Shown in pieces: positions 3,094-35,282 of a stretch of DNA of 64,000 nucleotides. The notes below the pieces were generated by a model. The model was not told the origin of the DNA, did no database searches, and worked only from the letters and a program-made list of their open reading frames with translations. The stretch's first letter is position 1; each line of letters opens with the position of its first letter. Source of the stretch: Maribellus sediminis (GTDB lineage: Bacteria; Bacteroidota; Bacteroidia; Bacteroidales; Prolixibacteraceae); contig NZ_WXUB01000004.1 in the NCBI RefSeq assembly GCF_011799805.1, positions 310,001-374,000 of the forward strand. Reading direction: 5' to 3'. A program made the position numbers and the translations under genes.

Positions 3094-4704
3094 TTATTGT
3101 GTGATTTTTCCTTTTATCATAGTCAGCGAGTGTGCCGGAAATTCATAAGTAAACGAGCTTGCTTCATTTAAGGTAAGTGAAGCTTTCTTTACTGTTTTTA
3201 CAGTTGTTTTCCCAAAATCATTCTCCGATTTAATATCCGGTCCATTAACCTCAAAAACTTCGAACTCGCCATTGAACAAGCCTTCCTGCGAAAATAAATC
3301 GGTAGCAATGGCTTTGTCTTTATGACGGTTAATTACAGTAATAACTATTTCTCCATCGTTATATGCAGCTGAAACGTCGAGGTAGGGTACATTTTTTTGC
3401 TGGGTTGCCTGTTCTGCCAGTCCCAGGTAGAATTCATCGGTGTCGTAGGTATCGCAATCCACAAAAACGTCAAGAGAGGTTCCGAACATGTTGTTGGCAA
3501 AAAGTTGCAGCGGGTAGTAAATCGTTTGCAGGAACATTCCGTCCTTCTCAGTAAAAATGGGTGCTATTACATTTACTAATTGTGCCATATTGGCCATTTT
3601 CACAATATCCGCATTTCGGATAAAAGCGTTTAAAAAGCCACCAATCACCAATGCGTCTTCAAGATTATACCGCTCTTCGAGCGCACGTTCACCGGTCATT
3701 GTTTCCTCCTGCCGCCAACGGTACCAAATATTATACTCATCCCATGCGATATATATCGGGTCTCGGTTTCCACGGTCAGCTTTTTCCATTTCACGCATAA
3801 TCATTCCCTTTACAACTTTGGTCCGTTCTTCAAGCACCAGTGGCGATGAAACGAAATTGTAATAGTTGTCCTGATGGTTTCCAACATACATATGCAGAGC
3901 GATATAATCAACCACATCTTTTAATTCCGAAAGAATGGTTGCGTTCCATTCATGCGGATCATTATTCGGCCTGAAATTGGAGGCCCCGGTTGCGATTAGT
4001 TTTATCGAAGGGTCGGTTAAACGCATAAGTTTAGCCGCTTCACGGGCTTTCTTACTGTAATCTTCAGCATTGAGATGGCCCATTTGCCAGAAGCCGTCCA
4101 TTTCGTTTCCAAGGCTCCAGTATTTGATATTGTGGGGCTCTGCATAGCCATGTTTTTTACGTAATTCGGCAGAATACGGGCCTTCTTTTACATTACAGTA
4201 TTCTACCCATTGCTGTGCTTCTTCAATGGTTCCTGTACCCAGGTTTACGGCAAAATATGGTTCGGTGCCAATCCTTCGGGCATAATCCACAAATTCATTT
4301 GTTCCAAACTGGTTTGTTTCAAGCCGGGCCCAGGCAAGTTCCATTCGTGGTGGCCGCTCATCTTTTGGGCCAACACCGTCTTTCCAGTGATAATTCGAAA
4401 CAAAGTTACCTCCCGGATAACGTAGAAGCGGGATGTTCAAATCCTTCACAGCGTCCAGAACATCCAGGCGTATTCCGTTTTCATCAGCATAAGGCGACTC
4501 TGGATCGTAAATGCCACCGTAAACACACCGACCAAGATGTTCCACAAAATTTCCGTAAATGTTGTTGTTAATCTCTCCAATTTGCCGGTCGATATCTATT
4601 TTAATACGCGCATTTTGTGCCATCGAAAATGTTGAACTTATCAATCCGGCAATAATTGTCAGCGCCAGGCAGCGCAATACATAAATTTGGTTCGTTTGTT
4701 TCAT
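3094..4704 (-). CDS. GH51 alpha-L-arabinofuranosidase
   Basis: This 536-residue enzyme should remove terminal alpha-L-arabinofuranosyl groups from arabinan or arabinoxylan oligosaccharides. The GH51 TIM barrel shows the acid/base Glu201 in SLGNEMDG and the nucleophile Glu323 in AWDEYNIW, followed by the family's C-terminal beta-sandwich. I chose the ATG at 4704 because it starts a normal signal peptide (basic MKQTNQ, hydrophobic core, cleavage near SMAQ); the frame extends 14 codons further up to 4746 but that would overlap the preceding gene and spoil the signal. No lipobox cysteine, so the enzyme is probably periplasmic. It begins 13 bases after the stop of the GH43 gene, so the two form an arabinan-degrading pair in one transcript. 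Confidence 0.93.
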   Translation of the reverse strand: MKQTNQIYVLRCLALTIIAGLISSTFSMAQNARIKIDIDRQIGEINNNIYGNFVEHLGRCVYGGIYDPESPYADENGIRLDVLDAVKDLNIPLLRYPGGNFVSNYHWKDGVGPKDERPPRMELAWARLETNQFGTNEFVDYARRIGTEPYFAVNLGTGTIEEAQQWVEYCNVKEGPYSAELRKKHGYAEPHNIKYWSLGNEMDGFWQMGHLNAEDYSKKAREAAKLMRLTDPSIKLIATGASNFRPNNDPHEWNATILSELKDVVDYIALHMYVGNHQDNYYNFVSSPLVLEERTKVVKGMIMREMEKADRGNRDPIYIAWDEYNIWYRWRQEETMTGERALEERYNLEDALVIGGFLNAFIRNADIVKMANMAQLVNVIAPIFTEKDGMFLQTIYYPLQLFANNMFGTSLDVFVDCDTYDTDEFYLGLAEQATQQKNVPYLDVSAAYNDGEIVITVINRHKDKAIATDLFSQEGLFNGEFEVFEVNGPDIKSENDFGKTTVKTVKKASLTLNEASSFTYEFPAHSLTMIKGKITQ

Positions 4705-4717
4705 AGTATAGTTGTTG

Positions 4718-5722
4718 TTAGAGTTCTTCTGCAATTGGCCATCCATCCTTATCCCAATCCATTTTTTTGATGATCAGTTTTGACTTTCCGTTGTCATGTG
4801 CATCATAGCCATGAAAAATCAGGTAATCTGTCCCGTCAAAAGTACAGGCGGCGTTATGTCCAACACCGTACCAGTCTTCATTACCTTTCAGAACGATTGT
4901 GCCTCCTCCGGTTGCCATCGAATTTCCATTTTTATCGAGATAAGGGCCGGGTATTGTTTCCGATCGGCCAACGATCATTTTGTAGGTGCTGTTCACACCT
5001 TTACAACAATAATCGATGGAAGCAAAAAGATAGTAATATTTACCCTTTTTAAAAATGAAGGGTGCTTCAATGGCATTACCTCCTGCATCTTTCGGATTGT
5101 CATCGACAGACGGTGGATTAGGTTCTTTCGATGACTTTTTACGCGATGCAATTGTAGGAATTGCATTTAAATCTTCTGCTGGCGCTGTGGCTTCAGGATT
5201 CATTTTTACCAATTTTAAACCATCCCAAAACGAACCAAAAGTGAGGTAAGGAGTTCCGTCATCGGCAACGATTAAATTCGGATCGATGGCATTCCAGTTG
5301 GTCTCGCCCGGAAATGATTGAATTACTTTTCCGTGATCGATCCATTGAAAGTCCGGATCGTTCGGATCAAGTGTTTTGTTGGTGGCAAGCCCAATACACG
5401 AGGTGTTTTTACCGAATGCCGATACTGAGTAGTACAAATAGTATTTCCCCTTATAAAAAGAAATATCCGGAGCCCAAATATGTCCTCTGAAACCTTCTAC
5501 TGCCTCTTTCGCCCATTGAGGTGCTTCCGAAAAAACAGCTTGCTCGCGTTTCCATTCCTTCATGTCCGGCGACGACCACACGCTGATTCCCCAGCCGGTG
5601 CAAAACAAATAGTAAGTATTGTTTTCACGTATCATCACAGGATCGTGTACACTGATTTTCTGTGCTTCGGAAATACCCGTAAACAAAAGTAAAGCCAGGA
5701 GCGTAATGTAAATTCTATTCAT
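4718..5722 (-). CDS. GH43 arabinanase/arabinofuranosidase-like enzyme
   Basis: A 334-residue secreted enzyme of the five-bladed beta-propeller family GH43, most like endo-1,5-alpha-L-arabinanases. The three expected acidic residues are visible: base Asp27 in SVHDPVM, Asp147 in NAIDPNL, and acid Glu219 in NAIEAPF. A CC pair in DYCCKGVNSTY is shared with the other two GH43 proteins in this window. Residues 1-20 are a signal peptide (MNRIYITL... GISEAQ) without a lipobox, so the enzyme is probably periplasmic. It is the first gene of a two-gene unit with the GH51 gene: GH43 would make or shorten arabino-oligosaccharides that GH51 finishes. GH43 also includes xylosidases, so the exact substrate is inferred from context. 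Confidence 0.9.
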   Translation of the reverse strand: MNRIYITLLALLLFTGISEAQKISVHDPVMIRENNTYYLFCTGWGISVWSSPDMKEWKREQAVFSEAPQWAKEAVEGFRGHIWAPDISFYKGKYYLYYSVSAFGKNTSCIGLATNKTLDPNDPDFQWIDHGKVIQSFPGETNWNAIDPNLIVADDGTPYLTFGSFWDGLKLVKMNPEATAPAEDLNAIPTIASRKKSSKEPNPPSVDDNPKDAGGNAIEAPFIFKKGKYYYLFASIDYCCKGVNSTYKMIVGRSETIPGPYLDKNGNSMATGGGTIVLKGNEDWYGVGHNAACTFDGTDYLIFHGYDAHDNGKSKLIIKKMDWDKDGWPIAEEL

Positions 5723-9132: not shown

Positions 9133-11886
9133 ATGGAGTTAGTAAAGACAAGACAAAAATTAGAATTATTGAATATCAATTTGAATTTCAGTTCCGTGCG
9201 ATTTAAATTCAATTTTATTTTCATGTTGGTGGCATTACTTGGTTTAAGCTTTTCTGCCTATGCATCCGAAAAGGAAACAATTGATCGCCTGGTAAATGAA
9301 AATAGGGTGCTTGCATCGGCCCATGAATTACACATCAGCGCAACCGATTCAGCGCTGATAAACAGTACGGTTAGCCTTGATCACGAAGATGCCTGGTTGT
9401 TCTTCGATAATATAAGACCCTCAGAAGTGATTGCAGCATACCAATCAGGCATTTTGATAAATGGTGAAATACTTAGTATAGGTGTGAATGGCCGTATGGC
9501 TATTTATGAGCATGGAACAGTAATTATACCTCATGGAAGTGATTATAAACCGCTTACTGTGTATAAAGGAAAAGATTATCAGGGCGATCAGAATACCTAT
9601 GCTCCAAATGTTTACAATAACAGTTTGGGTGAATTTGATAATGCCATTCAATCGTTTAAGTTGAAACGTGGTTACATGGTAACTTTTGCCACCAGTTCGG
9701 AAGGAACCGGTTATAGCAGGGTATTTATTGCCAACGATGCAGATTTGGAAGTTAACCTGCCGGATTTACTTAGCGGAAAAGTTTCATTTATCCGTGTATT
9801 TAAATACGAGTGGGTAACCAAAAAAGGATGGGCAGGATGGAACGAAGCAGAATGGGAAATCACCCAAAGCACCTGGCGATACGATTGGAACGCCGGGGGA
9901 GTAACAACAAATAATACGGAATATGTTCCTATCAAACAGAATCTGGGATGGCCTGGTTGGGATGTAATAAATTCCAAGAATAATGTTTCGCATCTGCTGG
10001 GTTACAACGAACCCGACCATACAGAGCAATCGGATGTTACAGTTGCTGAAGCCATAGCTGCCTGGCCTGAATATATGAAATCAGGATTAAGGCTTGGAGC
10101 CCCTGCAACAACCGATTTTAACTGGGTTATTGATTTTGTGAAAAGATGTGATGAATTGAATTACAGGGTCGATTTTGTGGCTGTTCATGCGTACTGGGGC
10201 AATAATCCATCCAGTTATTATAGTTCGCTTAACTGGGTACACCAGGCAACAGGAAGACCTATCTGGATAACAGAATGGAATTATGGGGCAAACTGGACCA
10301 ACGAATGGTGGCCTGATGATACACCGGCTTTAACACCAGCCAATGAAAATTATGCTTACGATAAAATTAAAGCTATTGTCGATTTCTTTGATGAAACGCC
10401 ATGGATAGAACGTTATTCAATCTATAACTGGGTTGAGGACAGAAGAGCAGTTGTTCTAAACGGAGAACTTACAAAAGCCGGAGAATACTATGCCGCCAAT
10501 AAGTCGACGGAAGCTTTCAACAGAAACTTTGAAGTTATTCCTCACTGGAATTTCCAAGCCCCTGAACTTTCAATGCGGTATTTTTCATTAAGAAATTCAA
10601 TTCGTGTGAGTTGGACTGATCCTAACGGAGAACTTTCCAAACAGTATGTTCTGCAGAGGAAAATAGATGACGGCAATTTCGAAACCATTTACACCACGGA
10701 GGATTATTCAGAGGATTTTTATCTTGATCCGCTCGATCCGGAAGTATACGGAAACATTTCCTACCGTTTAATGCTGCAAACGGCACAGGGTAATTTCCTG
10801 ACTTCCAATGTTGTTTCCTACTATCAAACAGCAGGCGAAAATGAAGTTCAGGTTGGAAATTTCAAGGTGAATAGCCTGTATATAAATTCGGCGTATTTTT
10901 CCAATAGATTTTCAACTCCACCAGTTACGGTTTTAGGAATACCAAGTGCAAATAATTCGTTTCCGATGTCGCAACGAATCAATAGCATGTCCAATACGGC
11001 ATTTGATTTCGTTTTTTATCCATGGACGTATCTTAGCAGTCCTCAGGTTAAAAAATCGGAGTTATTAGCTTCTTTGTCGTTAGCCGCCGGGACATACGAA
11101 TTCCAGGGATTGCAGGCTGAGGTTCAAAAGGTAACAGGTGTCACACGTGAATGGACTACTGTTGCTTTTAACAAAGCATTTGAACAGGCTCCTGTGGTTT
11201 TTTGTACAATCGGTACAAGAACAAATTTTTATCCACTTACAGTTGCGGTAAGAAATGTTACAGCAAACGGATTCGAAATGAGTTTGAAAAGCGAAGAGGC
11301 GATTACCGCAACATTAAGTGCTGAAACGGTCAACTTCTTTGCTATTGATCCAGGAAAAGGGGTAATAGATGGTAAACGCATTACGGTAGGAAGAAACGCC
11401 GGGGGCAATGGTATTTCTTCGATACCTCTTGAAATAGCGTATGATTCTACTTATACAGAGCCAGCCATATTTGCAGGCTTATTATCGGCTGAAGATAACT
11501 TTGCTTCCACCTTGCGATATTCCTATACGGGAGATACAAGTTTTGAAATAATAAAGCAACGTGAATTGTCGGGAGGAGAATCAGAAATGCGAACCGATGA
11601 ATTCGGATGGATGGTTATGGACTTGGCTGCTGATCAGCCAGATGTAGGGACGTCAGTTCCGGAAATAAGTTCTCAAAATCCGGTAATATTTTATCCTAAT
11701 CCGGCAAAACAGACGGTGTATTTCAATTTCGTAGAACCAATGCAGGTAGAAATCCTGGATATGACCGGAAGCACATTGATAAAATCGCTTGTTTCAAATT
11801 CATTAGACATAAGTTCGCTTTCTGCAGGTATTTATGTTATAAAAGTACCCGGAAGCCTGCCGGCTAAGTTGATTGTGAATCAATAA
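9133..11886 (+). CDS. GH128-like glycoside hydrolase with T9SS sorting domain
   Basis: A 917-residue exported enzyme. The hydrophobic export signal is at about 26-45, behind an unusually long N-region; a later start is possible, but no internal ATG precedes the core more convincingly. Residues about 125-205 resemble a beta/gamma-crystallin-type fold (GYMVTFATSSEG, LLSGKVSFIRV). Residues about 205-460 match the Glyco_hydro_cc family (GH128, known for beta-1,3-glucanases), with acid/base Glu293 in GYNEPDH and nucleophile Glu381 in IWITEWNYG. A fibronectin-like domain follows (480-570), then a beta-rich region without a clear family (570-830) and a T9SS sorting domain (from about 840, IFYPNPAKQ). 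It is probably a surface or secreted endo-beta-1,3-glucanase; the substrate is inferred from the family only. Confidence 0.8.
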   Translation: MELVKTRQKLELLNINLNFSSVRFKFNFIFMLVALLGLSFSAYASEKETIDRLVNENRVLASAHELHISATDSALINSTVSLDHEDAWLFFDNIRPSEVIAAYQSGILINGEILSIGVNGRMAIYEHGTVIIPHGSDYKPLTVYKGKDYQGDQNTYAPNVYNNSLGEFDNAIQSFKLKRGYMVTFATSSEGTGYSRVFIANDADLEVNLPDLLSGKVSFIRVFKYEWVTKKGWAGWNEAEWEITQSTWRYDWNAGGVTTNNTEYVPIKQNLGWPGWDVINSKNNVSHLLGYNEPDHTEQSDVTVAEAIAAWPEYMKSGLRLGAPATTDFNWVIDFVKRCDELNYRVDFVAVHAYWGNNPSSYYSSLNWVHQATGRPIWITEWNYGANWTNEWWPDDTPALTPANENYAYDKIKAIVDFFDETPWIERYSIYNWVEDRRAVVLNGELTKAGEYYAANKSTEAFNRNFEVIPHWNFQAPELSMRYFSLRNSIRVSWTDPNGELSKQYVLQRKIDDGNFETIYTTEDYSEDFYLDPLDPEVYGNISYRLMLQTAQGNFLTSNVVSYYQTAGENEVQVGNFKVNSLYINSAYFSNRFSTPPVTVLGIPSANNSFPMSQRINSMSNTAFDFVFYPWTYLSSPQVKKSELLASLSLAAGTYEFQGLQAEVQKVTGVTREWTTVAFNKAFEQAPVVFCTIGTRTNFYPLTVAVRNVTANGFEMSLKSEEAITATLSAETVNFFAIDPGKGVIDGKRITVGRNAGGNGISSIPLEIAYDSTYTEPAIFAGLLSAEDNFASTLRYSYTGDTSFEIIKQRELSGGESEMRTDEFGWMVMDLAADQPDVGTSVPEISSQNPVIFYPNPAKQTVYFNFVEPMQVEILDMTGSTLIKSLVSNSLDISSLSAGIYVIKVPGSLPAKLIVNQ

Positions 11887-12269: not shown

Positions 12270-15200
12270 ATGAGGAAAAATTTACTTCTTGGACTTTTGA
12301 CCTTGTTCACGTTTGCCGGGCTTCTCTGCTCGTCCGTGGCACATGGTCAGGCAACTCTTAAACACTCTTATACCTTTGAGGAAGGGACATATGAGGGGAC
12401 TACCATTTTTGACCAGACGGGAACCTTGAACGGAACCATGGTTGGTGATGCAATTTCCATTGACAGTGGAAAATGTGTTGTTTCCGGTGCCACCACAAAT
12501 ACCGACGGATATGTTGTTTTCGACGGTGTTGAACTGGCGCTGGCTTCGTATAACGCTGTTACCCTGGAGGCATATCTGGAAACAGGTGAAGTGCTGAACT
12601 CAACCTACACCATGCTTGCTTATTTTGGTAGCACATCCCAGGGAACAAATTGTTTCTGGATACAGCCTACAAGATCTGCAACAGAAACCCGGATTGAAGC
12701 AAATAACGGAAGCAGCACGATTAACGCAATTTTAGGTGGATACGAAGTGGATGACGGATTAAAACACCACCTTGTTGCAGTATTGAATGCTGACGCAATC
12801 ATCTATTATTTGGATGGAGTTGTAATTGCCCAAACACCAACCGACGGAGCAGATTATGTTAGTACAATCGGTACTGATATCGCTCAACTTTTTAAAGGTC
12901 CGGATGGATGGCCAGATCCGAACTACAATTGCTGGCTGGAAGAATTCAATATTTACGACGGTACGCTCGACGCATTTACCATTGGTCAGCGCGCCGGAGT
13001 GTATTTAGGCCTTGATCTTTACAATGCAACACTTGATACAATTACAGTTACTCCTGGTGCTTTGGAACCGGCTTTTACTGCTGATAATGACTTTTATGAA
13101 GTAGAAGTACCTTATGGAACAACATCGATAACCATTGGTGCAAAACCAGCTATTGGTGGTGCAACAACAACGATATACAATGGTTTGGGTGAGGAACTGG
13201 AAAATGGAGTTTTGACATTTGACAAAGAAGAAGGAGATTTTGCTGAAATTGTTGTAACAGCTCTTGATGGTGTTACAGAACAATCTTATTATATTGATGT
13301 TTTCCCTGAACCGGGTGAAGCATCAGCAACCTTAGCTAGTATTGATCTATCGGCAGGTGCATTTACTACCAGTTTCGATATGTATGATACAGCTTACGTT
13401 GCCATTGTACCAAACGGAACCGTTTCAGTGGATGTTACAGGTGTGGCGAACTGGAATAATGCAACAGTTGTTGGGAATGGAACAGTTACTTTAGTTGATG
13501 GAATGGGGTCGGCTACGATTACTGTTACCTCTGAAGATGCTACAAACACATCGGTATATACTGTTGAAGTATACACCTCCGTTTTTGTTACCGGAACCGA
13601 CTTTTACCTGGTGCATGAAGCAAATGGTTTTGTAGCAGCTGAAAGCGGCGCTACTTTTAACCAGGTTGTTCTGGAAGAAGCTGTTCTTGACTCAACTACA
13701 CAGATTTGGCAATTTGTGGAGAGCGGAGAAGAGGGACAGTATTATATTCAGAATAAGGATGGCCACTATATGTGTCTTTCCCGTACCGGAGCTGCTTATG
13801 ATCTGGAAGTTTATCCTGATCTTCCTTCGAATGAACTCGACAGTGCCCGTTTTATACTGAATGAATTTGCTCCAGGCAGGTTTAAGATCATTTCGGTAGC
13901 TCGACAGAATATTCCTTCAACCAATAATATGTTGAGTCCGAACAATCCTCAGCTTGGTTCACCTCTTTTCTCTGATAAAGGGCCTGGATCAGTAATGGAT
14001 GCCGCAGGATACACCGTATGGAACCTTAAGTTTCCTGAAGATGTTGCGAGTTCGTATGAGACTCACCTGTCAAGCCTTACAATGACCGGTGCAACGTTTA
14101 CTCCTGTTTTCGATCCTGCTTACACTACGTATTATGCTTCAATTCCTGCAGGAGTGACTTCTGTTGAAGTTGCCGCCACAGCTAAGGATCCTTCATCTAC
14201 GGTATCAGGTACAGGAACCATTAGTGTTTCTGATGGAAAAGGAACAATAACTGTTACAGTTGCGGCATCTGATCCTCAGTATACACGTGAATATATGATT
14301 CATTATGTGGAGCCAGGTATAAGACATCAATTTACTTTTGAAGAAGGTACTTACGATGCAACCACTGTTTATGATCAGGTAGGTTCGGTTAATGGTACCC
14401 TTGGTGGTAAAAAGATTTCCATCGCAGATGGAAAAGCGACGGTAGCCGGAGCTGGTGCTAACAACGATGGATGGATCTCAATGGATGGAGCAGCCCTTGC
14501 ACTTAATACCTATTCCAATATTACAATTGAGGTGATGTTGCAAGCAGGGGATATGGAAAACACAAGCTTCACGATGTTAACTTATTTCGGAACGTCGTCA
14601 CCTGGAAGCGGATGTTTGTGGATACAACCATCACGGTCAGGAAATGAGTCAAGGATAGAAACAAATAACGGAAGCAGTACAATTACAGCAGCTTTGCCAG
14701 GATATGAAATCGATGACAGCCTGAAGCACCACGTTGCTGCAGTACTCGACCAGTCTTCTCTTAAGTATTATCTTGATGGGGAAGTAGTTTCTGAAGTATC
14801 AACTAACGGAGCAGATTTTATCCGAACTATTGGTACTGATGTCGCCAATATTTTCAGAGGAGTTGACGGTTGGAACGACCCTAACTACAATGGATCTATT
14901 TATGAATATAATATTTGGGAAGGTGGATTAGATGACGCCACTATATTGGAACGTGCGAATGAATTTCTTGGAGGTCTGTCGCGCGACGCCTCTTTGTCGG
15001 CAATAAATGTCGATGCCGGTGAATTGCTTCCTGAATTCGATCCGGAAGTAACGATGTATACAGTTGTTGTACCTTTAGGAACAACTACAGTTAATGTTAC
15101 TGCTGTTCCTAACGATCAGAATGCGACAATAGTAGGTGATGGTGCCATTGATGTTTCATCAGGTGCTGTAAAGGATACAATTGTAGTTACTGCAGAAGAC

Positions 15201-17489
15201 GGCTTCAGAACTAAAACATACATTGTTTCGTTTGAAGCTCCGAGCGAATATACCCTGATGCATTCCTACACTTTCGATGACGGAACTGCTGCTGACGTAG
15301 TGGGAGACGCTGACGGAACTCTTGGAAGCGGAATTATTGCAGATGGTGCGTTTACTTCAGTTTCTGATTCAGATTACGTAGAACTGCCTGCTACTACCAT
15401 CGCGATCAATACTTATACCGAAATTACTTTGGAAGCCTTTATTTTTGCTGATGTTGATAACACCGGATCAAACATGATGGCTTATTTTGGAGGAAATGAG
15501 AACGCGGTTGGCGGAAATGGGTACTTCGTAACACCGGATAGAAATACACAAAGCCGAACTGCAATTTCCTGTGGTAACGTTACAGAACCATGGAATGCTG
15601 AACAAGGTGTTACCGGTAGTCCGGTTAGCGTGGGTGAGATGCATCATGTTGTAAGTGTATTGACAAACTCTGCAATCAAATTCTACCTTGACGGTGTTTT
15701 GGTTGGCGAAGCTGCAGTAAGTGAGCCTAATTCGATTGCAGCGCTTAGCAATGATAATGCCTGGTTGGGCAAGGGTGGTTATACAGCCGACCCGAGCTGG
15801 AACGGTTCTATCGATGAATTTAATATTTACCAGGGTGTAATGGATGCTGGAACCATCGCGCGACGTGCAAGCCAATATTTGGGCGGTTTAACTAAAATGC
15901 ACTCGTATACTTTCGAAGACGGAACAGCTATTGATGTTGTTGGCGATGCTGATGGAACGCTGGTAGGAGCAGGAACAATCGAAAACGGTGTTTATACTGC
16001 CGCTGCCAATGGAGATTACATCGAATTACCGGCTGACAAAATTGCGATAAATACATACACAGCCATTACGCTGGAAGGCTTTATCTTTTCAGATGTTGAT
16101 AACACCGGCGCTACTATGATGGCCTATTTTGGTGGAAATGAGAATGCTGTTGGTGGTAATGGATATTTCTTTACACCCGATCGCTGGACAGAAAGCCGTA
16201 CCGGAATTTCGTGTGGAAACCTTACAGAACCTTGGAACGCAGAAGATGGTGTTACGGGTGACCCAGTAAGTGTTGGAGATAAGCATCATGTTGTTAGTGT
16301 ACTCACGGAGTCTGAAATCGCCTGGTATATCGATGGTGAATTGGTTGGAACAGATTCATTATCTGAGAATAATTCAATTGCCAACTTAAGTAACGCCAAT
16401 GCATGGTTATGCAAAGGAGGATATACTGCTGACCCAACATGGTTGGGTACCATCGATGAATTTAATATCTGGCAGGGTGCAATGGACAAAGCTACTATTG
16501 CAGAACGTGCACGGGAGTATTTATCTTCATCCGATGCTAATCTATCATCTTTAAGTTCAAATGTTGGTACTGTATTACCTGATGCCACAAGTGGAAGCAA
16601 CCATTTTGCAGTGGTGGTTCCCGAAGGTACAACCGCAGTAACTTTAACAGCCACTCCTACTACTTCCGGAGCAACTGTGTCGGGTGATGGCGCGGTTGAT
16701 TTAACAGAAGGAGAAACAACAGTAGTGATTCAGGTTACTTCAGCAGACGGTACAGTTACAAAAGACTTTACAGTTGATATCGTAATTGAAGATGGCTCAT
16801 GTTCAGCTGAATTGGATGCAAATAATCTTGTAGCTGATCCTGAAATGACAGATATGAGTAAATGGCAGGGATGGGGATCAAAAGCCCTTGTTTACGGCCA
16901 TGAAGCTTATTGTGGTGGTTCATCGATGAAACTTGGAAATGGTGGCGATGGTTGTGATGCAGCTCTGGATATGTCGCCATTCGATTTCCAGCCAAATACT
17001 ACTTACCGTGTACGTGTGATGGTAAAAACTGTTGATGGTTCTATCGGATTCTTAGCTAAAGGAGCAGATCCTGATTTTGGCTTTGCTATCAACACTAACG
17101 GTGAATGGATGCAGATTGACACTACCTTTACAACCGGAGAAAATCCTACCGATGATTTCATAAGTTTCAACAAATGTGATTACGAATCAAATTGTACATA
17201 CTGTTACATTGATAACTACGAAGTATTTGTTGACAACGGAACTTCTGTAGGTGATATTGATGAATCCGCAATTAGGGTTTATCCAACCTATTCAACAGGT
17301 GACTTTAAAGTGGAAACCGACGGAAGTCATGGAACAATCACCGTTTACAACCTTACTGGTAAACTGGTACTTCAGAAAGTAATCGAAAGCAGCCTTGAGA
17401 CTGTTACGGTTCGCGACAGAGGTATGTACATTATGAAGGTTGAAAACGAAGATACATACAGAACATTCAAGGTTTTCAAAACAAGATAA
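12270..17489 (+). CDS. Giant LamG / cadherin-like beta-sandwich protein with T9SS domain
   Basis: A 1739-residue exported protein without a recognisable catalytic domain. Order of modules: signal peptide (1-28), LamG 1 (30-243), two cadherin-like beta-sandwiches (251-345, 351-437), a ricin-like segment (438-594), cadherin-like 3 (596-680), LamG 2 (686-905), cadherin-like 4 (909-987), LamG 3 (994-1204), LamG 4 (1209-1417), cadherin-like 5 (1422-1505), a CenC-type carbohydrate-binding region (1510-1657) and a T9SS sorting domain (1666-1739, with VYPTYSTG replacing the usual YPNP motif). LamG 1 and 2 form one related pair and LamG 3 and 4 another. It is likely a long surface or secreted glycan-binding or adhesion protein. 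The next gene encodes a shorter relative with a near-identical sorting domain. Confidence 0.85.
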   Translation: MRKNLLLGLLTLFTFAGLLCSSVAHGQATLKHSYTFEEGTYEGTTIFDQTGTLNGTMVGDAISIDSGKCVVSGATTNTDGYVVFDGVELALASYNAVTLEAYLETGEVLNSTYTMLAYFGSTSQGTNCFWIQPTRSATETRIEANNGSSTINAILGGYEVDDGLKHHLVAVLNADAIIYYLDGVVIAQTPTDGADYVSTIGTDIAQLFKGPDGWPDPNYNCWLEEFNIYDGTLDAFTIGQRAGVYLGLDLYNATLDTITVTPGALEPAFTADNDFYEVEVPYGTTSITIGAKPAIGGATTTIYNGLGEELENGVLTFDKEEGDFAEIVVTALDGVTEQSYYIDVFPEPGEASATLASIDLSAGAFTTSFDMYDTAYVAIVPNGTVSVDVTGVANWNNATVVGNGTVTLVDGMGSATITVTSEDATNTSVYTVEVYTSVFVTGTDFYLVHEANGFVAAESGATFNQVVLEEAVLDSTTQIWQFVESGEEGQYYIQNKDGHYMCLSRTGAAYDLEVYPDLPSNELDSARFILNEFAPGRFKIISVARQNIPSTNNMLSPNNPQLGSPLFSDKGPGSVMDAAGYTVWNLKFPEDVASSYETHLSSLTMTGATFTPVFDPAYTTYYASIPAGVTSVEVAATAKDPSSTVSGTGTISVSDGKGTITVTVAASDPQYTREYMIHYVEPGIRHQFTFEEGTYDATTVYDQVGSVNGTLGGKKISIADGKATVAGAGANNDGWISMDGAALALNTYSNITIEVMLQAGDMENTSFTMLTYFGTSSPGSGCLWIQPSRSGNESRIETNNGSSTITAALPGYEIDDSLKHHVAAVLDQSSLKYYLDGEVVSEVSTNGADFIRTIGTDVANIFRGVDGWNDPNYNGSIYEYNIWEGGLDDATILERANEFLGGLSRDASLSAINVDAGELLPEFDPEVTMYTVVVPLGTTTVNVTAVPNDQNATIVGDGAIDVSSGAVKDTIVVTAEDGFRTKTYIVSFEAPSEYTLMHSYTFDDGTAADVVGDADGTLGSGIIADGAFTSVSDSDYVELPATTIAINTYTEITLEAFIFADVDNTGSNMMAYFGGNENAVGGNGYFVTPDRNTQSRTAISCGNVTEPWNAEQGVTGSPVSVGEMHHVVSVLTNSAIKFYLDGVLVGEAAVSEPNSIAALSNDNAWLGKGGYTADPSWNGSIDEFNIYQGVMDAGTIARRASQYLGGLTKMHSYTFEDGTAIDVVGDADGTLVGAGTIENGVYTAAANGDYIELPADKIAINTYTAITLEGFIFSDVDNTGATMMAYFGGNENAVGGNGYFFTPDRWTESRTGISCGNLTEPWNAEDGVTGDPVSVGDKHHVVSVLTESEIAWYIDGELVGTDSLSENNSIANLSNANAWLCKGGYTADPTWLGTIDEFNIWQGAMDKATIAERAREYLSSSDANLSSLSSNVGTVLPDATSGSNHFAVVVPEGTTAVTLTATPTTSGATVSGDGAVDLTEGETTVVIQVTSADGTVTKDFTVDIVIEDGSCSAELDANNLVADPEMTDMSKWQGWGSKALVYGHEAYCGGSSMKLGNGGDGCDAALDMSPFDFQPNTTYRVRVMVKTVDGSIGFLAKGADPDFGFAINTNGEWMQIDTTFTTGENPTDDFISFNKCDYESNCTYCYIDNYEVFVDNGTSVGDIDESAIRVYPTYSTGDFKVETDGSHGTITVYNLTGKLVLQKVIESSLETVTVRDRGMYIMKVENEDTYRTFKVFKTR
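15256..16520 (+). repeat. Tandem duplication of a LamG module inside the 1739-aa protein
   Basis: Two adjacent units of about 210 codons, at roughly 15256-15885 and 15893-16520, encode LamG domains sharing long identical stretches such as YFGGNENAVGGNGYF and AINTYT. The DNA has diverged at many third positions, so this is an older in-frame duplication. The units join directly without a linker domain. Confidence 0.8.
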
Positions 17490-17668: not shown

Positions 17669-20600
17669 ATGAATCGTTTTAATACAAGTGTTCGGATTTT
17701 AAGTTTTGCAATTATCTTTTTATTTCATCCTATTCTGTGTGGAGCCCAAACTGATCCTGGAAATGAGAACCTGAAACATCAGTGGACCTTTGATGATGGA
17801 ACGGCCAATGATATTATCGGGTCAGCAAACGGAACCTTACAGGGTGGGGCAACAATAAGTAATAAAGCCTTAAATACATCAGCCGGAGGATACCTTTCAT
17901 TTCCCGGCAATGAAATAGGAATTAATACATATTCTGAGCTGACAACCGAAGTTTGGTTTAAATCTTCAGCCGGGCAGAATTCGGGTAATACAATGTTAAT
18001 CTATTTTGGCAATGCCGATGTCGATGGTTGGAAAGGGACAAACTACATTTTTACCGCTCCTTCGAACGGGGGAAATTGTCGTCTGGCTATTTCAACCGGT
18101 AATACTACAGAGCCATGGATGGCCGAGAACGGCGTTAATAATCCGTCGGGCGCTATTGATGATGGGCAGTTACATCAACTGGTGAGTATAATTGATGCTA
18201 CTACCGTAAGTTTTTACGTGGATGGAACAAAAGTAGGCTCAACTTCATTAACCGGATCTAACCAACTTTCGGCAGTAAGTTCAGCGAAGGCATTTTTATG
18301 TAAGAGCGGATACAGTGGCGATCCACTTTGGAAAGGCTACACACAAAAATACTCCATTTACAATAAAGCACTTTCAGATGACGAGGTACTGTTTTTATAT
18401 CAACAGGGGGCCGAATCTTCAGAAATGATTACAGCATCTATTAAGTCTTTAGCTTTTGATAATCGCTACAAAGAAGAAACAATTACGATTACCGGGATAA
18501 ACCTGGACACCATTATATCGGTTTCAACACCTGCCGGAATTACGGCAAACCCAACTACACTTCCTGCAAATGCAAGCAATTCTGCAGTAAAAATTACGTA
18601 TGACGGAACTAGTGTGGTTGATGGGAATATTACATTTTCCAGTGGTGACGGTGTTCTTGATGTTCCGGTAAAATCATATTCGAATGATTGTTTTACTCCA
18701 CTGTATGAAGGTATTGACAATTTGGTCCCTGATCCTTACGTGACTTATCTTTCATCTTTTTCAGGATGGGGAAACAGAAGCATCAACAGTGATCCGGATT
18801 ACACGTTTTGCGGGGCGACAAGTGGAAAAGTTACCGGAACGAATGGGGGTTCGCTGGATGTGACTTTAACCGGAAAGATCAGGACAAATGCTGTCTATCG
18901 AATAAGAGCACAGGTATTTACCATTGGAGGAGCATTCCAAATCGGAATGTTTGGATGGTCGGACGGGCAGGGAGATTTTGTAAAAACATTCAACACTTCA
19001 GGAACCTGGCAGGATATAGATTTTACAATTACAACCGGAGCCACATTGGGTGCCAGTCAGGGTATCTTTTTTAATAACTACGGCTTATCCGGAACTACAG
19101 GATATATCGATAACTGGGAAATGTATGCCTTACCCGCCATTCATTTGTCACAGTCTGTTCTGGAATTTAACAGCCCGGAATCAAAAACTATTACCGTAAG
19201 CGGAATGAGTTTGATCGAGGACATTTTAGTCAGTAGTCCCGAAGGATTCACCGTTTCTAAATCATCGATTCCCGCCGATGCAAATGGGGTTTCATTAACT
19301 GTAAATTATGTTGGAGAAAGTTCGGCTTCAGGATATATTTATTTTGAAAGTGGCGACGTCAAAGATAGTTTGCAGGTTATCGGCTCTTCAAATCCTGCCA
19401 TTGAGGCTTCAGTGGATTACCTTGGTTTTGACGAGATCAGTTCAAGTGGCGTATTTAAGGTAACAGCTTATAATTTAAGCAACGAAATTAGCTTAACGGC
19501 GCCCGAGGGAATTACCCTTTCTGTCGCATCACTGCCATCTGGGGCAGCAGGAGAAACAGTTACCGCAACTTATGACGGAAGCACTGCTGCATCCGGGTTT
19601 ATATACATGACAAGTGGTTCAGCTGCAGACAGCATCCAAGTGTTGGCAGCACGAAATGATGAATGTTTCCAACCCTTGTTTCCGGACAGGGAAAATCTGA
19701 TTGTTGATCCGACATGTAACACCTATTTGAATGATGGCTGGGGAAATAAGAGCATTAATTCTGATCCTGAATATGTTTATTGTGGAAGCAGGAGTGGAAA
19801 AGTAAGTGGCTCGGGATCTTTGGATAGAAAACTGACGGGTAAACTTAAAACGAACACTTCGTACCGGATGAGAGCTAAAGTCTTCAAAGTCAGTACCACC
19901 GGGGAAAACATGGGGAATGTTACCTTTACTATGGCTTTCGACAGTACTGCATTTCCCGAGCAGTACAGGATGATAAAAACAGCTATGGACAGTGCCTGCT
20001 ATTATTTCAACAAATACACTCCATTTATAGAAAACATCAGGGTAGTGTACAATGCAGGTATTCCTACAGCTCAGGCCAGTTATCATGGTGAGATAGGTTT
20101 TGGTGCTAATTCAAGGTATATGTGGGTGGGAACAGCCATCCACGAAATGGCTCATTATTTTGGCTCAGGTACTTCCACGGCTTGGCAAAGTACCATGGTT
20201 AACGGAAAATGGACCGGTAAGAGCGGAAACAGCGTAGTCAAAGCGATCACCGGAGGATCTACTCAGGTTGTTTCAGGAGATAACAATCCGGCTCCGGTTC
20301 ATTACTGGCCGTATGGCATTAATCAAAAAGAAGAAATTACCGGACTGGGCTCTCAGGCAGTGCAGAAAAAGGCCTTGGCTGATGCGGTAAAACTAATAAA
20401 AGCTATGCTGGTTGATGACTGTGATTTACCAACCAATAATCCAAAAGTTGGGTTGGGGGTTTACGGTTGGGATGCTTCCAAAGGTGATCTTTACTACGAA
20501 GTAGATGAAAAAGAATCATGGCAGGATGTAGACGTTAAATTCAGAACTGGTTCTAAATTAAAATCATCGCAAGGTGTTTTCTTCAACTCAGGTACCGGTT

Positions 20601-21127
20601 ATATCGACAACTGGGAACTGTATGAGCTATCTTCCGATGCTGCGTTATCAGATCTTCGGGTGAACGGCACCACAGTTTTGGGATTTGATCCTGCTATTCT
20701 GGAATATAACGTTGAACTGGATAGCGCTGCCATTCCCGAATTAGTAGCAGTAGCTGCCAGCGAGTATGCTACCACTGCTATAAATAGCCCGGCTGCATTG
20801 CCCGGTTCGGCAACCATAAAAGTCACTGCTGAGGATAGTGTCACCATAAATACCTACACCGTTAATTTCTCCTTAACAACCTCAATCGAAGAATTTAATT
20901 CTGCTTCAATAAAAGTTTATCCTACCTACTCGTCTGGTGAATTTACTGTTGAAACATCTGGAAGAAGCGGTATAATTTCCGTTTATAATCTACCTGGAAA
21001 GTTGGTTTCTCAAAAAACAATCGAAAGTAACCACGAAACATTAACTATTCAGGAAAGAGGTATGTACCTGATTAAAGTTGAATGTGAAGATACTTCAAAG
21101 ACATTCAAAGTATTTAAAACAAGATAA
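17669..21127 (+). CDS. LamG/CBM protein with a nested HExxH metallopeptidase-like domain and T9SS tail
   Basis: A 1152-residue exported protein. After the signal peptide (1-26) comes a LamG domain (30-240), a beta-sandwich repeat (about 250-340), a CenC-like carbohydrate-binding module ending IDNWEMYALP, two more related beta-sandwich repeats, and a second CenC-like module. This second module is interrupted: its first half stops near residue 742 (YRMRAKVFKVST) and resumes near 925 (NPKVGLGVYGW). The intervening ~180 residues carry AIHEMAHYFGSGT, a zinc-metallopeptidase-type HExxH motif (His825, Glu826, His829). A cadherin-like domain and a T9SS sorting domain (KVYPTYSSG) end the protein. It may bind glycans and cut an associated protein. 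The third zinc ligand cannot be assigned from sequence alone, so peptidase activity is an inference. Confidence 0.82.
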   Translation: MNRFNTSVRILSFAIIFLFHPILCGAQTDPGNENLKHQWTFDDGTANDIIGSANGTLQGGATISNKALNTSAGGYLSFPGNEIGINTYSELTTEVWFKSSAGQNSGNTMLIYFGNADVDGWKGTNYIFTAPSNGGNCRLAISTGNTTEPWMAENGVNNPSGAIDDGQLHQLVSIIDATTVSFYVDGTKVGSTSLTGSNQLSAVSSAKAFLCKSGYSGDPLWKGYTQKYSIYNKALSDDEVLFLYQQGAESSEMITASIKSLAFDNRYKEETITITGINLDTIISVSTPAGITANPTTLPANASNSAVKITYDGTSVVDGNITFSSGDGVLDVPVKSYSNDCFTPLYEGIDNLVPDPYVTYLSSFSGWGNRSINSDPDYTFCGATSGKVTGTNGGSLDVTLTGKIRTNAVYRIRAQVFTIGGAFQIGMFGWSDGQGDFVKTFNTSGTWQDIDFTITTGATLGASQGIFFNNYGLSGTTGYIDNWEMYALPAIHLSQSVLEFNSPESKTITVSGMSLIEDILVSSPEGFTVSKSSIPADANGVSLTVNYVGESSASGYIYFESGDVKDSLQVIGSSNPAIEASVDYLGFDEISSSGVFKVTAYNLSNEISLTAPEGITLSVASLPSGAAGETVTATYDGSTAASGFIYMTSGSAADSIQVLAARNDECFQPLFPDRENLIVDPTCNTYLNDGWGNKSINSDPEYVYCGSRSGKVSGSGSLDRKLTGKLKTNTSYRMRAKVFKVSTTGENMGNVTFTMAFDSTAFPEQYRMIKTAMDSACYYFNKYTPFIENIRVVYNAGIPTAQASYHGEIGFGANSRYMWVGTAIHEMAHYFGSGTSTAWQSTMVNGKWTGKSGNSVVKAITGGSTQVVSGDNNPAPVHYWPYGINQKEEITGLGSQAVQKKALADAVKLIKAMLVDDCDLPTNNPKVGLGVYGWDASKGDLYYEVDEKESWQDVDVKFRTGSKLKSSQGVFFNSGTGYIDNWELYELSSDAALSDLRVNGTTVLGFDPAILEYNVELDSAAIPELVAVAASEYATTAINSPAALPGSATIKVTAEDSVTINTYTVNFSLTTSIEEFNSASIKVYPTYSSGEFTVETSGRSGIISVYNLPGKLVSQKTIESNHETLTIQERGMYLIKVECEDTSKTFKVFKTR

Positions 21128-22386: not shown

Positions 22387-24390
22387 ATGACATTCAGAAT
22401 TGACACTAAGCTATTTATCCCATCCCTGTTTTTCTTTTTTATCACGTTTTCCGCCTTGGGGCAGAAATGGCCCGGAGGTATTCACGATCCGTCAAGTATT
22501 GTTAAATGCGACGATACCTATTGGGTTTTTGGAACCGGTGATGGCATTTACAGCATGTATTCTTCCGACCTGATTACATGGCAGGCGGGACCAACACCAT
22601 TTACAAAAACTGTTTATCCTGACTGGATAAAAAGTTACGTCGGAGGATTTGGAGGAAATTTCTGGGCTCCGGACATCATTTTCATGAACGACCGGTACTA
22701 CCTATATTATTCGTGCTCAGAATGGGGGACAATGACATCCACCATCGGTTGTGTCACCAATAAAACACTCAATCCCGACGATCCGGATTTCGCATGGGTC
22801 GATCAGGGTTTTCTGGGGATCTGGTCGTATCAGCCGGGATTGGCATTGAACGCCATTGACCCGTCATTAATGAGAGGCCCTGATGGAAAGATATGGATGG
22901 TATACGGCTCTTTTAATGAAGAGGGTATTGTAGTAACAGAGATCGATTCGGTTTCCGGAAAACCAAAATCATACGACGGAAATCTTCCCGGCAAGAGCAT
23001 CGCCAATTCGTGGACTGGTCCGCAAAGCTACGTCTATGGTGAGGGAGAAGGAGCCTCAATGATTTACCGCGATGGATACTATTATCTTTTTTACAACAAG
23101 GGTGGTTGTTGTGCCGGAATTGCCAGTACCTATTTTATGGTGATGGGAAGATCATCAAATCCGCGTGGTCCATTTCTCGATAAAACGGGAAAGGCTCTTA
23201 AAATTAACGGACAAGCCAGCGGGGGTACGATTGTTTTGAAACATGATGATTCGCGGGGAACGGAGGATCGTTATTTTGGTCCCGGCCACTTTGGAATGTA
23301 CAGCGAAAATGGAGTGGATTACGTAACTTTTCATTACTACGATCCGAATGGATTTTATCCCAATCCCGATGCGAACAATCAGGGGGGGCCAACGCTTGGG
23401 CTTGCTAAACTGGTTTGGGGTGAGGATGGATGGCCATCCATTTCACTTGATTTTGTGGATGAAGGTGTTTATACTATCAGGAACGAATTCAGTGATAAGG
23501 TCATCGATATTTCATCGCATGATATAGCCGAAGGCGCGAAATTGTATCAATATACATCTGACTCTGTATTCGATACTCAAAAGTGGGTATTTAATGCTAT
23601 GGGAAGCGGCGAGTACTCCATAAACAATTATGCTGACCCAGGAATGTATGTAGAAGCCGGCAGCACTTCTCTTGCGGTTACCGGCGAATATGACGGTAGT
23701 GTGAATCAATTATTCAGAACGGTAACTTCCCCAAATGGCAAAACCATCATATATCCTTCAACAAAAGATGTTGTTTGGGGACTTCCGTCGGCTACGAGCA
23801 GCGATGTGAATCTTTACCTCAGATCAGTTATTTCGCACGATCTTTTGCGTTGGAATATGATTCCTTTTGAAGAAACGCTGTCAATTTCAGAAAGCAGACT
23901 AACAATTGAGCACTCGGCCGGAACAAATAGCAGCATCCTGGTTGAAAGCAATGGATTGTGGAGCGCCAAGGTTTTTTACGACTCCTGGATGAGTGTAGAA
24001 ACTTCAGGTGTTCAAAACGACACCTTAAAACTCATTTACGATGAAAATCCGACTGCTGCTGACCGACGAAACCGAATTTACGTGGTAACGAACGGTGGAA
24101 AATCAGAAACGATTGTGGTTACTCAAATGGGGAAACCCAGTTCTGTTAATGATCCGAACGCTAACGAAACAGTTCTTATATACCCAAACCCGACTTCTGA
24201 TGAAGTTACCATTGAATGTGAAGAGAATGCCTTGATTTCCGTGCTTACCCAGACCGGACAAAAAATAAGTAATTTTGAAACGACACGTGGTGTTAACAAG
24301 ATAGATATCAGTAGTTATAAGGGAGGTGTTTACTTTTTTGTAATTCAAACTGATCATGAATCCTTCGTAAAAAAGATACTAAAGAATTAG
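22387..24390 (+). CDS. Secreted GH43 arabinanase-like enzyme with ricin-like, BACON and T9SS domains
   Basis: A 667-residue exported enzyme. Signal peptide 1-25; GH43 beta-propeller about 28-360 with Asp34 (GIHDPSS), Asp158 (NAIDPSL) and probable acid Glu221 (GEGEGASM); GGCCAGIASTY is the CC signature also seen in the other GH43 proteins here. A ricin-like segment (about 365-460, EGVYTIRN, IDISSHDIAEGAKLYQY) is followed by a BACON-type domain (about 495-585, ESNGLWSAKVFYDSW...VVTQMG), often involved in carbohydrate or mucin contact, and a T9SS sorting domain (LIYPNPTSD to the end). It most likely attacks arabinan at the surface or outside the cell, upstream of the periplasmic GH43/GH51 pair near the left end. 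The exact linkage is not determined by the sequence. Confidence 0.88.
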   Translation: MTFRIDTKLFIPSLFFFFITFSALGQKWPGGIHDPSSIVKCDDTYWVFGTGDGIYSMYSSDLITWQAGPTPFTKTVYPDWIKSYVGGFGGNFWAPDIIFMNDRYYLYYSCSEWGTMTSTIGCVTNKTLNPDDPDFAWVDQGFLGIWSYQPGLALNAIDPSLMRGPDGKIWMVYGSFNEEGIVVTEIDSVSGKPKSYDGNLPGKSIANSWTGPQSYVYGEGEGASMIYRDGYYYLFYNKGGCCAGIASTYFMVMGRSSNPRGPFLDKTGKALKINGQASGGTIVLKHDDSRGTEDRYFGPGHFGMYSENGVDYVTFHYYDPNGFYPNPDANNQGGPTLGLAKLVWGEDGWPSISLDFVDEGVYTIRNEFSDKVIDISSHDIAEGAKLYQYTSDSVFDTQKWVFNAMGSGEYSINNYADPGMYVEAGSTSLAVTGEYDGSVNQLFRTVTSPNGKTIIYPSTKDVVWGLPSATSSDVNLYLRSVISHDLLRWNMIPFEETLSISESRLTIEHSAGTNSSILVESNGLWSAKVFYDSWMSVETSGVQNDTLKLIYDENPTAADRRNRIYVVTNGGKSETIVVTQMGKPSSVNDPNANETVLIYPNPTSDEVTIECEENALISVLTQTGQKISNFETTRGVNKIDISSYKGGVYFFVIQTDHESFVKKILKN

Positions 24391-33630: not shown

Positions 33631-35169
33631 CTATTCCATTACAGGTTCTAAAATGATACAATCGATGCGCATTGTTCTGTCGAATTCACCTGACTGTTCT
33701 TCCTGCGTTGACACATCGTTAATTACTTCCAGTTTTACCGAAATTTTGTCATTATCAGCATCGATAACATTGGCAAATTCAAAATCAAACTGATCAACAA
33801 ACATCTTCGTGAGTCCCTCAGTATCAGTTATGTTGTTTTCCGGTGTAACACGTTTGATGAAGGTACTTCCACTTGCCCTTCTTATGTAGGTGAGCTGAAA
33901 TTTTGCTTTGGTTGGTGTGAGATTGTTCGGATCCACAATTTTGGCCGGAACGAACACACAGTAAATATTGTATTTCGCTGAAAGCGTATTCGGTATCGAG
34001 AATTCCACACGCGGAGCGGTTGATGTCGGTTCAACCAGTATGTAATAATTGTTCGAAGTTGTAAATTCTGTTCCGTAGCTTGAGCGTGTGTATATATTAC
34101 TTCCTGTGTTAGTTCTGCCAAAGCCGTATTCTGCTTCAACTCTAATTTCCTTAAAAAAGGAAGTAGTATCCTCGAATGGCATCTGATCTGTTACATAGGC
34201 AAGACCATTGCTGAGCGATTCATAATCCAATCCCTTGAATAATTCAGCCGGATTGTGGAATACATTTCCATAGGTTGATCTGAGCGAATCATAATTCTCG
34301 GGTTGGCTGATACGGCCACGAAAGAACATATCCTGGATAACCGTGTAACGGGTTACCTCACGTTGACGCTCGATACCACCGGCATCCTCCGGAAAATTAT
34401 AATAACCTTCTATTCTTGAATAGGCTTCATCCCAGGCGGTATTATCCGGCATAATTGCAGTGTAAGTACTGTCTTCAATATCAATGTTACCAAGCCGTTC
34501 CAAAACCGGATTCGATACAATAAAAACACTGTCGTATAGTACATTTCCTTCTTCATCAGTACCAATTTCTGTACTGTTCTCGGCATCGAATACTACTTTC
34601 GACTGGCCGTAAATGTATTCACGCAATGAATCGAGACCATCGGTTTGTCCTATGTATTCCCAAAGATTGAATACGTATGGTGCATATCCGTCGACCACGT
34701 GGACCAAGCCGTTTTTTGCCGGCTGATTGGCATTAGAGATATTGTGCTCTCCAAAAGTGTAACCCGATCCTTCCTGGGCGAAGTTTACGTATTTATTGTT
34801 GAGCATTCGAATAAAGGAATTATCGACTCCCGATGTGGTTATTCTGCTTCGGGCAATGTGGTTCCTTACCGTTCTTGTTACCAACTCAGTGTCGGACAGG
34901 TCCAGGCCACTCAGTGCTTCGTTTTTTGGAGCCCAGACTGTATATGATTGCGAAGCATTCAAAATATCATCGTAACCCGCCGTCTCCAGCATGCCGTAAA
35001 AGGTGCTCAAATCTGATTGCTCCTTTATGTACTCTGTTACAGTTTTATCTGGTAAATCAAAAGAACCTTCATCGTAATGATCATCCCATTCCTTTGTACA
35101 GGCTGTTACAAGGATTACACCTATTAAAGCCGATAATGGGACGAAGCCCTTTAAACGTTTGTATTTCAT
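33631..35169 (-). CDS. FAS1 (fasciclin) domain surface lipoprotein
   Basis: A 512-residue lipoprotein: signal with lipobox VTAC (Cys24), then TKEWDDHYDE, an acidic stretch fitting export to the cell surface. An N-terminal FAS1 domain is clear (STFYGMLETAGYDDIL, YTVWAPKNEAL, NHIARSR, NGLVHVVDGYAPY). A second, more degenerate FAS1-like unit with TAIMPDNTAWDEAY follows. The C-terminal ~180 residues form a beta-sandwich (NNYYILVEPTSTAPRVEFSIP) resembling carbohydrate-binding folds. FAS1 domains mediate adhesion to proteins or glycans. Placed just before a SusC/SusD pair, it may act as an accessory ligand-binding protein, as SusE/F do in classical loci. The 113-base gap upstream could hold an RNA processing hairpin. 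Confidence 0.85.
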   Translation of the reverse strand: MKYKRLKGFVPLSALIGVILVTACTKEWDDHYDEGSFDLPDKTVTEYIKEQSDLSTFYGMLETAGYDDILNASQSYTVWAPKNEALSGLDLSDTELVTRTVRNHIARSRITTSGVDNSFIRMLNNKYVNFAQEGSGYTFGEHNISNANQPAKNGLVHVVDGYAPYVFNLWEYIGQTDGLDSLREYIYGQSKVVFDAENSTEIGTDEEGNVLYDSVFIVSNPVLERLGNIDIEDSTYTAIMPDNTAWDEAYSRIEGYYNFPEDAGGIERQREVTRYTVIQDMFFRGRISQPENYDSLRSTYGNVFHNPAELFKGLDYESLSNGLAYVTDQMPFEDTTSFFKEIRVEAEYGFGRTNTGSNIYTRSSYGTEFTTSNNYYILVEPTSTAPRVEFSIPNTLSAKYNIYCVFVPAKIVDPNNLTPTKAKFQLTYIRRASGSTFIKRVTPENNITDTEGLTKMFVDQFDFEFANVIDADNDKISVKLEVINDVSTQEEQSGEFDRTMRIDCIILEPVME

Positions 35170-35208
35170 TTCTAATTGCTTTTCAGTCGTTTATATTTTC
35201 AATTTGCG

Positions 35209-35241
35209 GATGTAGTTCACGAAACTCGCAAGAGCTACATC
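35209..35241. repeat. Inverted repeat in the gap between two FAS1 genes
   Basis: GATGTAGTTC (35209-35218) pairs with GAGCTACATC (35232-35241) through a 10-bp stem with one G-U wobble and a 13-base loop. No U-run follows on the coding (-) strand, so it is more likely an RNA-stability or processing element than a terminator. Function not shown. Confidence 0.35.
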
Positions 35242-35282
35242 TTTTGTATTGAATAATAATTTTTACCATGCTCGTTTGAGTT

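Follow-up and report, generated by a model that had tools for sequence, protein, structure and literature searches.

A predicted zincin-like domain nested within a CenC-like carbohydrate-binding module of a T9SS-tailed protein from Maribellus sediminis

The stretch of DNA analyzed here, 64,000 nucleotides from Maribellus sediminis and hereafter called the window, carries at positions 17669..21127 of its forward (+) strand a single open frame encoding a multimodular, predicted secreted protein of 1152 amino acids. The hydrophobic N-terminus of this protein resembles a signal peptide by eye, and it precedes a concanavalin-like Laminin_G_3 module at residues 73-240 (17885..18388, +; Pfam PF13385, E 4.7e-16). 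Two CenC-like modules follow: the first is unsplit (18683..19132, +), and the second consists of an N-terminal half (residues 664-744; 19658..19900, +) and a C-terminal half (residues 928-987; 20450..20629, +) that enclose a metallopeptidase-like domain of residues 749-924 (19913..20440, +), recognized by its homology to free-standing copies. The HEMAH motif that the earlier note on this DNA had read as a zinc-peptidase HExxH was located where expected, at residues 825-829 (20141..20155, +). The insert also contains His878 of an HxWPYGxN motif (20300..20302, +), a candidate third zinc ligand, and Glu889 (20333..20335, +), which may be an alternative third ligand or a structural residue. The protein ends in a C-terminal sorting domain of the T9SS at about residues 1083-1150 (20915..21118, +), where TIGR04183 scores 29.9 bits against a cut-off of 23 (residues 1084-1150), as is expected of a T9SS substrate, and Por_Secre_tail scores 26.5 bits, just below its cut-off of 27 (residues 1083-1147).

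Glycan-related genes surround this frame. The 18 window ORFs scanned include an arabinofuranosidase C-terminal domain protein, three GH43 proteins, a Glyco_hydro_cc protein, LamG/ricin proteins with T9SS tails, two TonB-dependent receptors, two SusD-type proteins and three fasciclin proteins. Two genes on the reverse (-) strand at 3094..5722 encode the alpha-L-arabinofuranosidase C-terminal domain protein, of GH51 type (PF06964, E 1.1e-40), and a GH43 protein (PF04616, E 6.8e-55). On the + strand lie the Glyco_hydro_cc gene (9133..11886; PF11790, E 1.6e-28), relatives of which occur near the peptidase-like gene in several other genomes, and a gene at 12270..17489 with four Laminin_G_3 stretches, three Cadherin-like stretches and one CBM_4_9 module by Pfam; downstream, a GH43 protein with a ricin-like domain and a T9SS tail is encoded at 22387..24390 (+; PF04616, E 1.8e-36). 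Families GH51, GH43, GH35, GH30 and GH88 are assigned to arabinogalactan breakdown. The three fasciclin-domain proteins (33631-37256 and 42133-44712) stand beside SusC/SusD-type genes, and a further one lies by the peptidase-like gene of locus L011; the protein encoded at positions 40-2940 of the window (966 aa) has four PATR stretches as well as a T9SS tail.

The earlier note had proposed that the metallopeptidase-like segment interrupts a carbohydrate-binding module, and this is borne out by two comparisons in which the flanks of the insert are recognized separately. When the unsplit module was compared with module 2 by BLASTP, each side of the insert was matched on its own, one with E 3e-28 (55% over 82 columns) and the other with E 3e-17 (38% over 95 columns). 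A profile built exclusively from eight unsplit modules (one each from the window, L004, L005 and L010, two each from L009 and L027) aligned its positions 1-85 with residues 664-744 (E 4.9e-25) and its positions 87-151 with residues 928-987 (E 1e-13), leaving residues 745-927 between the two pieces. Since nearly the whole profile is accounted for, the host module loses almost nothing at the joint, and the position of the break places the insert in the turn between two neighboring strands. The segment had originally been placed at 19895-20440; the split is real, and the recognizable domain is slightly tighter, beginning at 19913. Six proteins from several assemblies carry a split CenC-like module (window, L004, L005, L010, L027 and L028, the last two being close relatives), and in five of them the first piece ends at model position 81-85 and the second begins at 84-87; L010, from Mangrovibacterium lignilyticum, has a second piece that starts at position 87, and the match of its first piece extends some 30 residues into the insert. 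On these alignments, the nesting of the domain in module 2 is virtually certain.

As for the host, the term lectin module used at first is a loose one, and the module resembles beta-sandwich modules of the CBM_4_9/CBM16 type. Pfam CBM_4_9 (PF02018) matches the unsplit window module below its cut-off of 25.9 bits (16.6 bits, E 0.011), and it scores 32.9 bits on the module of the upstream gene and 53.6 bits, in three stretches, on the related nested protein of L050. AlphaFold, given the whole split module, models the first 60 residues of the N-terminal host half with block means of 25-43, too weak there to reveal a closed host fold. Parts of the whole-module model weakly match CBM16, CBM61, CBM4 and a porphyran-binding module in a fold search (E 0.007-0.05). 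The top entry of that search, meprin (E 4.5e-4), was discounted as proof given its TM-score of 0.23 and rmsd of 16 A.

The insert itself is a self-contained domain. Modeled alone, it reaches fair confidence (pLDDT 81.9, pTM 0.82) with the HExxH motif in a helix; confidence drops in the 20-residue region surrounding H878 (block means 51 and 60). The structure was compared using Foldseek, and of the best 50 of 263 matches (up to E 10), 46 are by title HExxH peptidases or their complexes, led by myroilysin, MMPs, BMP1 and snapalysin; the other four among the matches listed are YbeY, a malate dehydrogenase, a flavodoxin and an unknown protein. These matches are weak, none being below E 0.001 (best 0.027), with best TM-scores of about 0.3-0.4, and the predicted fold thus reads as zincin-like, perhaps near the metzincins, which is not a statement of family membership. 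At the level of sequence, no family was found over cut-off or below E 0.001 in Pfam (copies searched), NCBIfam (window protein) or PHROG (window insert), and the PDB yielded no credible relative, only three chains at E 0.5-0.9. Pfam candidates below cut-off were set aside, namely PARP (E 0.08-0.1), Peptidase_M6 (0.072), WLM (0.86), DUF3144 (0.11) and Reprolysin_3 (0.015).

A lone HExxH is weak evidence of a peptidase, and its conservation across homologous domains adds weight. Loss of the motif among homologues had been named as a possible refutation; instead, it is present in all 44 domains of an alignment collected by profile alone, with HExxH not required, although the profile itself contains the motif and a copy without it would score a little lower. 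This set derives from 45 distinct sequences, of which one fragment, the second copy of L006, was dropped. Residues H825, E826, H829, G832, W880, N885 and E889 are invariant, and H878 is found in 43 of the 44; the exception, L041, had Ser at this column in an earlier alignment but carries His immediately before it, which may reflect a shift in the alignment. The position of the third metzincin ligand is never His or Asp, being occupied by T (35), Q (6), A, L or I (1 each; n=44). With this ligand missing, a zinc site would need one from elsewhere, and H878 or E889 may provide it.

The search for other hosts of the insert, also proposed at the outset, found it mostly as C-terminal or lone copies in other proteins. 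Among 42 domain copies classified by placement, 31 are C-terminal (including L015 and L041, which are nearly lone domains), five are internal in tandem without splitting a carbohydrate-binding module, and six are nested. This set, also used for the tree below, was gathered with a pattern requiring HExxHxxGxG, which missed L026, and it omits copies of the window, L010 and L019 domains (L001, L012, L002, L047 and L003), the repeats of L038 in L045, and the partial L006_1 and L039_0. With the window's own genome included, the domain occurs in 3 of 149 near relatives, 3 of 140 genomes of the window's family, 12 of 393 of the order and 2 of 395 across the phylum (that is, one besides the window's own), in genome sets that overlap; these low counts make the family a sparse one. 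Further carriers are 14 of 151 genomes in the family of G408, eight genome-contig loci and two plasmid records. In Clavibacter phaseoli the domain forms a lone protein of 183 aa with a likely signal peptide. Its partners elsewhere vary: Pfam fn3 lies beside it over cut-off in L052 and L054 (in L007, L070 and L072 no fn3 match passes the cut-off, and the repeats there look similar by eye only), and ricin-type beta-trefoils are joined to it in L014 and L059 by Pfam and in four more by eye.

In Dysgonomonas sp. 216 (L009), a free peptidase-like gene is followed by a separate gene with two unsplit CenC-like modules (L009:5547-6818), a pair that, by sequence, is the two-gene counterpart of the nested protein. 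A CenC-like module match also falls within the same 20-kb stretch as the free copy of L068, perhaps another two-gene arrangement. Two smaller observations concern the free copies. A second, partial copy of slightly different sequence lies near a contig end at L006:8994-9305. In the five genome-contig loci that have free copies, an ORF of 161-173 aa lies directly upstream of the peptidase-like gene and overlaps it (L006:3941-4459, L007:3682-4170, L008:3290-3781, L009:3688-4170 and L011:3976-4461), and that of L007 ends in a T9SS tail.

In a tree of the 42 domains, rooted for drawing only, the six nested copies are united (86/96) within a set of 15 (97/99), whose other nine members are free C-terminal copies; the branches placing the nested group within this set are weaker (80/84 and less). 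As the nested copies group together among free C-terminal ones, a single insertion is likely, and the nested form is most simply explained by a free domain having entered a CenC-like module once. No other member of the window's genus carries the domain in the 140-genome family set, which, together with the 3 carriers in that family, suggests transfer or frequent loss. A phage or mobile origin was considered and rejected: none of 168 pattern candidates in viral contigs is a relative, the Clavibacter protein has no match in phages, and plasmid copies occur only in two Clavibacter records.

To characterize the gene context, 30 stretches around the domain were compared with 36 control stretches. 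The former cover 33 of the 36 domain places (the window itself, G776:C266 and G660 being omitted), with L071 and L079 shorter than 20 kb; the latter were taken from 18 contigs, namely the window's and 17 that contribute a place to the 30 stretches, and were positioned by rule, not at random, at fractions of 0.2 and 0.6 of the length preceding the peptidase match. Genes of SusC (21/30 versus 9/36; Fisher p 0.00043), SusD (19/30 versus 7/36; p 0.00038), Glyco_hydro_cc (8/30 versus 0/36; p 0.001) and GH43 (6/30 versus 1/36; p 0.041; 5 versus 0 with a separate GH43-like query) were more frequent beside the domain, in hits and controls that are not independent samples. GH16 (7 versus 0) and GH2 (10 versus 1) were distributed similarly, and GH127 gave 2/30 versus 0/36 (p 0.2). 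Queries throughout this comparison were drawn from few Pfam-labeled proteins, so that members may be missed in both sets. GH88 (2/30 versus 1/36), GH30 (1/30 versus 0/36) and rhamnogalacturonan lyase (2 versus 1) were scarce, GH51 was not enriched (0/30 versus 1/36), and GH35 was in neither set. Two queries were left unused: one from window positions 6027-8819 (9 versus 0), which may match the ricin part of the peptidase-like genes, and a CBM query (3 versus 0), which in L050 and L067 hits the nested genes themselves.

Seventeen of the 30 stretches come from one family, that of G408, and hence are not independent; in the other 13, which include two same-genus pairs (L068/L079 and L072/L073), SusC occurs in eight and Glyco_hydro_cc in eight. 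DUF4959-DUF5126-DUF5000 proteins, SusE-like according to PMC8211771, and DUF4998-DUF5013 proteins were each found in 12/30 versus 0/36 stretches, all in the G408 family. The locus of L054 comprises SusC, SusD, one protein of each of these two kinds, the peptidase-like protein, GH16, GH2 and a GH43-GH127 fusion, and ORFs of matching size and start lie between SusD and the peptidase-like gene in L054 (6563-8999), L056 and L059, which looks like one conserved locus type. Elsewhere, three GH43 genes and a LamG-like gene lie within about 13 kb of the lone Clavibacter copy; GH35, GH88 and alpha-L-arabinofuranosidase genes neighbor L007; GH35 and a GH43 match just below cut-off neighbor L008; GH88-GH43, Glyco_hydro_cc and fasciclin genes neighbor L011; and GH30 neighbors L010. 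No glycosidase appeared among the few neighbors scanned in L004 (2), L005 (1), L006 (1) and L009 (2). Rhamnogalacturonan lyase-type genes occur in L072 and L073. Taken as gene context, the link of the domain to glycan loci is fairly firm, and a link to a particular polymer is not.

Considering conservation and modeled fold, the insert is a probable, so far uncatalogued zinc peptidase; zinc binding and peptide-bond cleavage by the domain have fair support, and we judge it quite likely to be an active metallopeptidase. The protein as a whole may be a sugar-binding scaffold, secreted by the T9SS, whose inserted zinc peptidase-like domain acts on plant cell-wall glycoprotein, a reading to which we give about an even chance. 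In such a scenario, the 1152-aa protein would exit the cell by the T9SS, and its LamG and CenC-like modules would hold it on a complex plant glycan rich in arabinose or galactose. E826 would serve as general base, the zinc being coordinated by H825, H829 and, as third ligand, either H878 or E889; the nested domain would cut peptide bonds nearby, in arabinogalactan proteins or extensin-like glycoproteins, which would then become open to neighboring glycosidases. Unlike a flexible tandem arrangement, nesting would fix the distance between the glycan-binding and catalytic sites. The proposed substrate, arabinosylated or arabinogalactosylated plant protein, is suggested by the arabinose- and galactose-type genes near several copies and by GH127 in two stretches. 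According to PMC6085000, PMC7263609 and PMC10850190, hydroxyproline-rich glycoproteins are a target of beta-L-arabinofuranosidases. Plant cell-wall glycoprotein as the main substrate is nonetheless a tentative assignment, somewhat less likely than not, and pectin-linked targets are possible, as the lyase-type genes of L072 and L073 fit pectin as well as glycoprotein.

Several other explanations share part of this evidence. The domain could be an active zinc peptidase with another target, either any protein at a polysaccharide surface or surface proteins of the bacterium itself; the motif kept in 44/44 domains and the existence of a lone form suit this, and the variety of ricin, fn3 and carbohydrate-binding partners implies no single glycan, but the recurrence in SusC/SusD loci, several beside arabinose-type genes, speaks against it, and we regard it as somewhat unlikely. 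Self-processing, which the earlier note had entertained, is made less likely by the C-terminal or lone copies of this domain in other proteins. That the zincin-like scaffold might instead house a zinc-dependent enzyme of another kind, such as a hydrolase of glycans or esters, would agree with the frequent glycan settings, with the third metzincin His missing in 44/44 domains and with the lack of a credible peptidase family match by sequence; the HExxH with an invariant glycine three residues on, and fold matches that are mostly zincins among the matches listed, make this distinctly unlikely.

The unusual end of the motif and the insertion in a module loop could also be read as signs of a degenerate domain that serves as a non-catalytic binding or spacer module, which is very improbable given that distant copies, from Bacteroidota and from one actinobacterium, all retain the Glu and the two His. 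For an assembly or annotation artefact no supporting point was found, and the identical split in contigs of several independent assemblies reduces its probability to a negligible level. The peptidase reading directed at plant glycoprotein would, if true, make the family a protein-cutting step, the plant counterpart of mucin-cutting M60, with the nested form as one rigid unit. It would also show how the protein component of plant hydroxyproline-rich glycoproteins is attacked by environmental Bacteroidota, give hypothetical proteins of glycan loci a role, and supply a naturally occurring case of an enzyme housed within a binding module. The broader proposal, that a zinc peptidase family not yet described and with a third-ligand arrangement of its own recurs, though sparsely, in plant-glycoprotein loci of Bacteroidota and of at least one actinobacterium, is one that we consider rather unlikely as a whole. 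What is new here, by sequence comparison, is an uncatalogued zincin-like domain that is nested in a few Bacteroidales and free elsewhere. In the literature covered (titles and abstract openings, with subscription journals mostly outside), we found no account of this nesting or motif and no peptidase for plant glycoproteins in such loci.

The known systems that come closest include two families of secreted peptidases. M60-like (PF13402) proteins are described in PMC3267712 and PMC13355702 as extracellular HExxH metallopeptidases joined to carbohydrate-binding modules and aimed at glycoproteins, also in Bacteroides, often encoded in polysaccharide utilization loci (15/16 in B. caccae), with such a division of labor for mucins. 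The insert likewise has HExxH, is joined to modules and lies in glycan loci, but it is nested inside a module, and its surroundings are plant-type where those of M60 are mucin-type. Neither the window protein nor any of the ten related members searched matched the PF13402 profile at E 1 or better; the M60-like motif is HEXXHX(8,28)E (PMC3267712), and the window sequence has no Glu in the 28 residues after HEMAH, with the invariant Glu889 60 residues on. The M72 peptidyl-Asp metallopeptidase Mep72 of Pseudomonas aeruginosa is, according to PMC4222646, a secreted HExxH peptidase with two CBM_4_9 modules that follow in tandem and a HEXXHXXGXXH motif with a third His, whereas the window domain reads HEMAHYFGSGT, lacks that His and is nested. 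Astacin- and matrixin-type metzincins (myroilysin 5zjk, MMPs, BMP1) share HExxHxxG and weak fold matches with the insert, which departs from their HExxHxxGxxH/D pattern by T, Q, A, L or I at the third ligand and shows no sequence match to them. With zincins of the clan MA type the domain has HExxH in common in all 44 copies, the catalytic role of the Glu being predicted, and its flanks weakly match CBM_4_9/CBM16-type modules in profile and fold searches, here with one loop holding a domain of 176 residues. By analogy, the best reading of the nested protein is M60/M72-like in logic, not in family.
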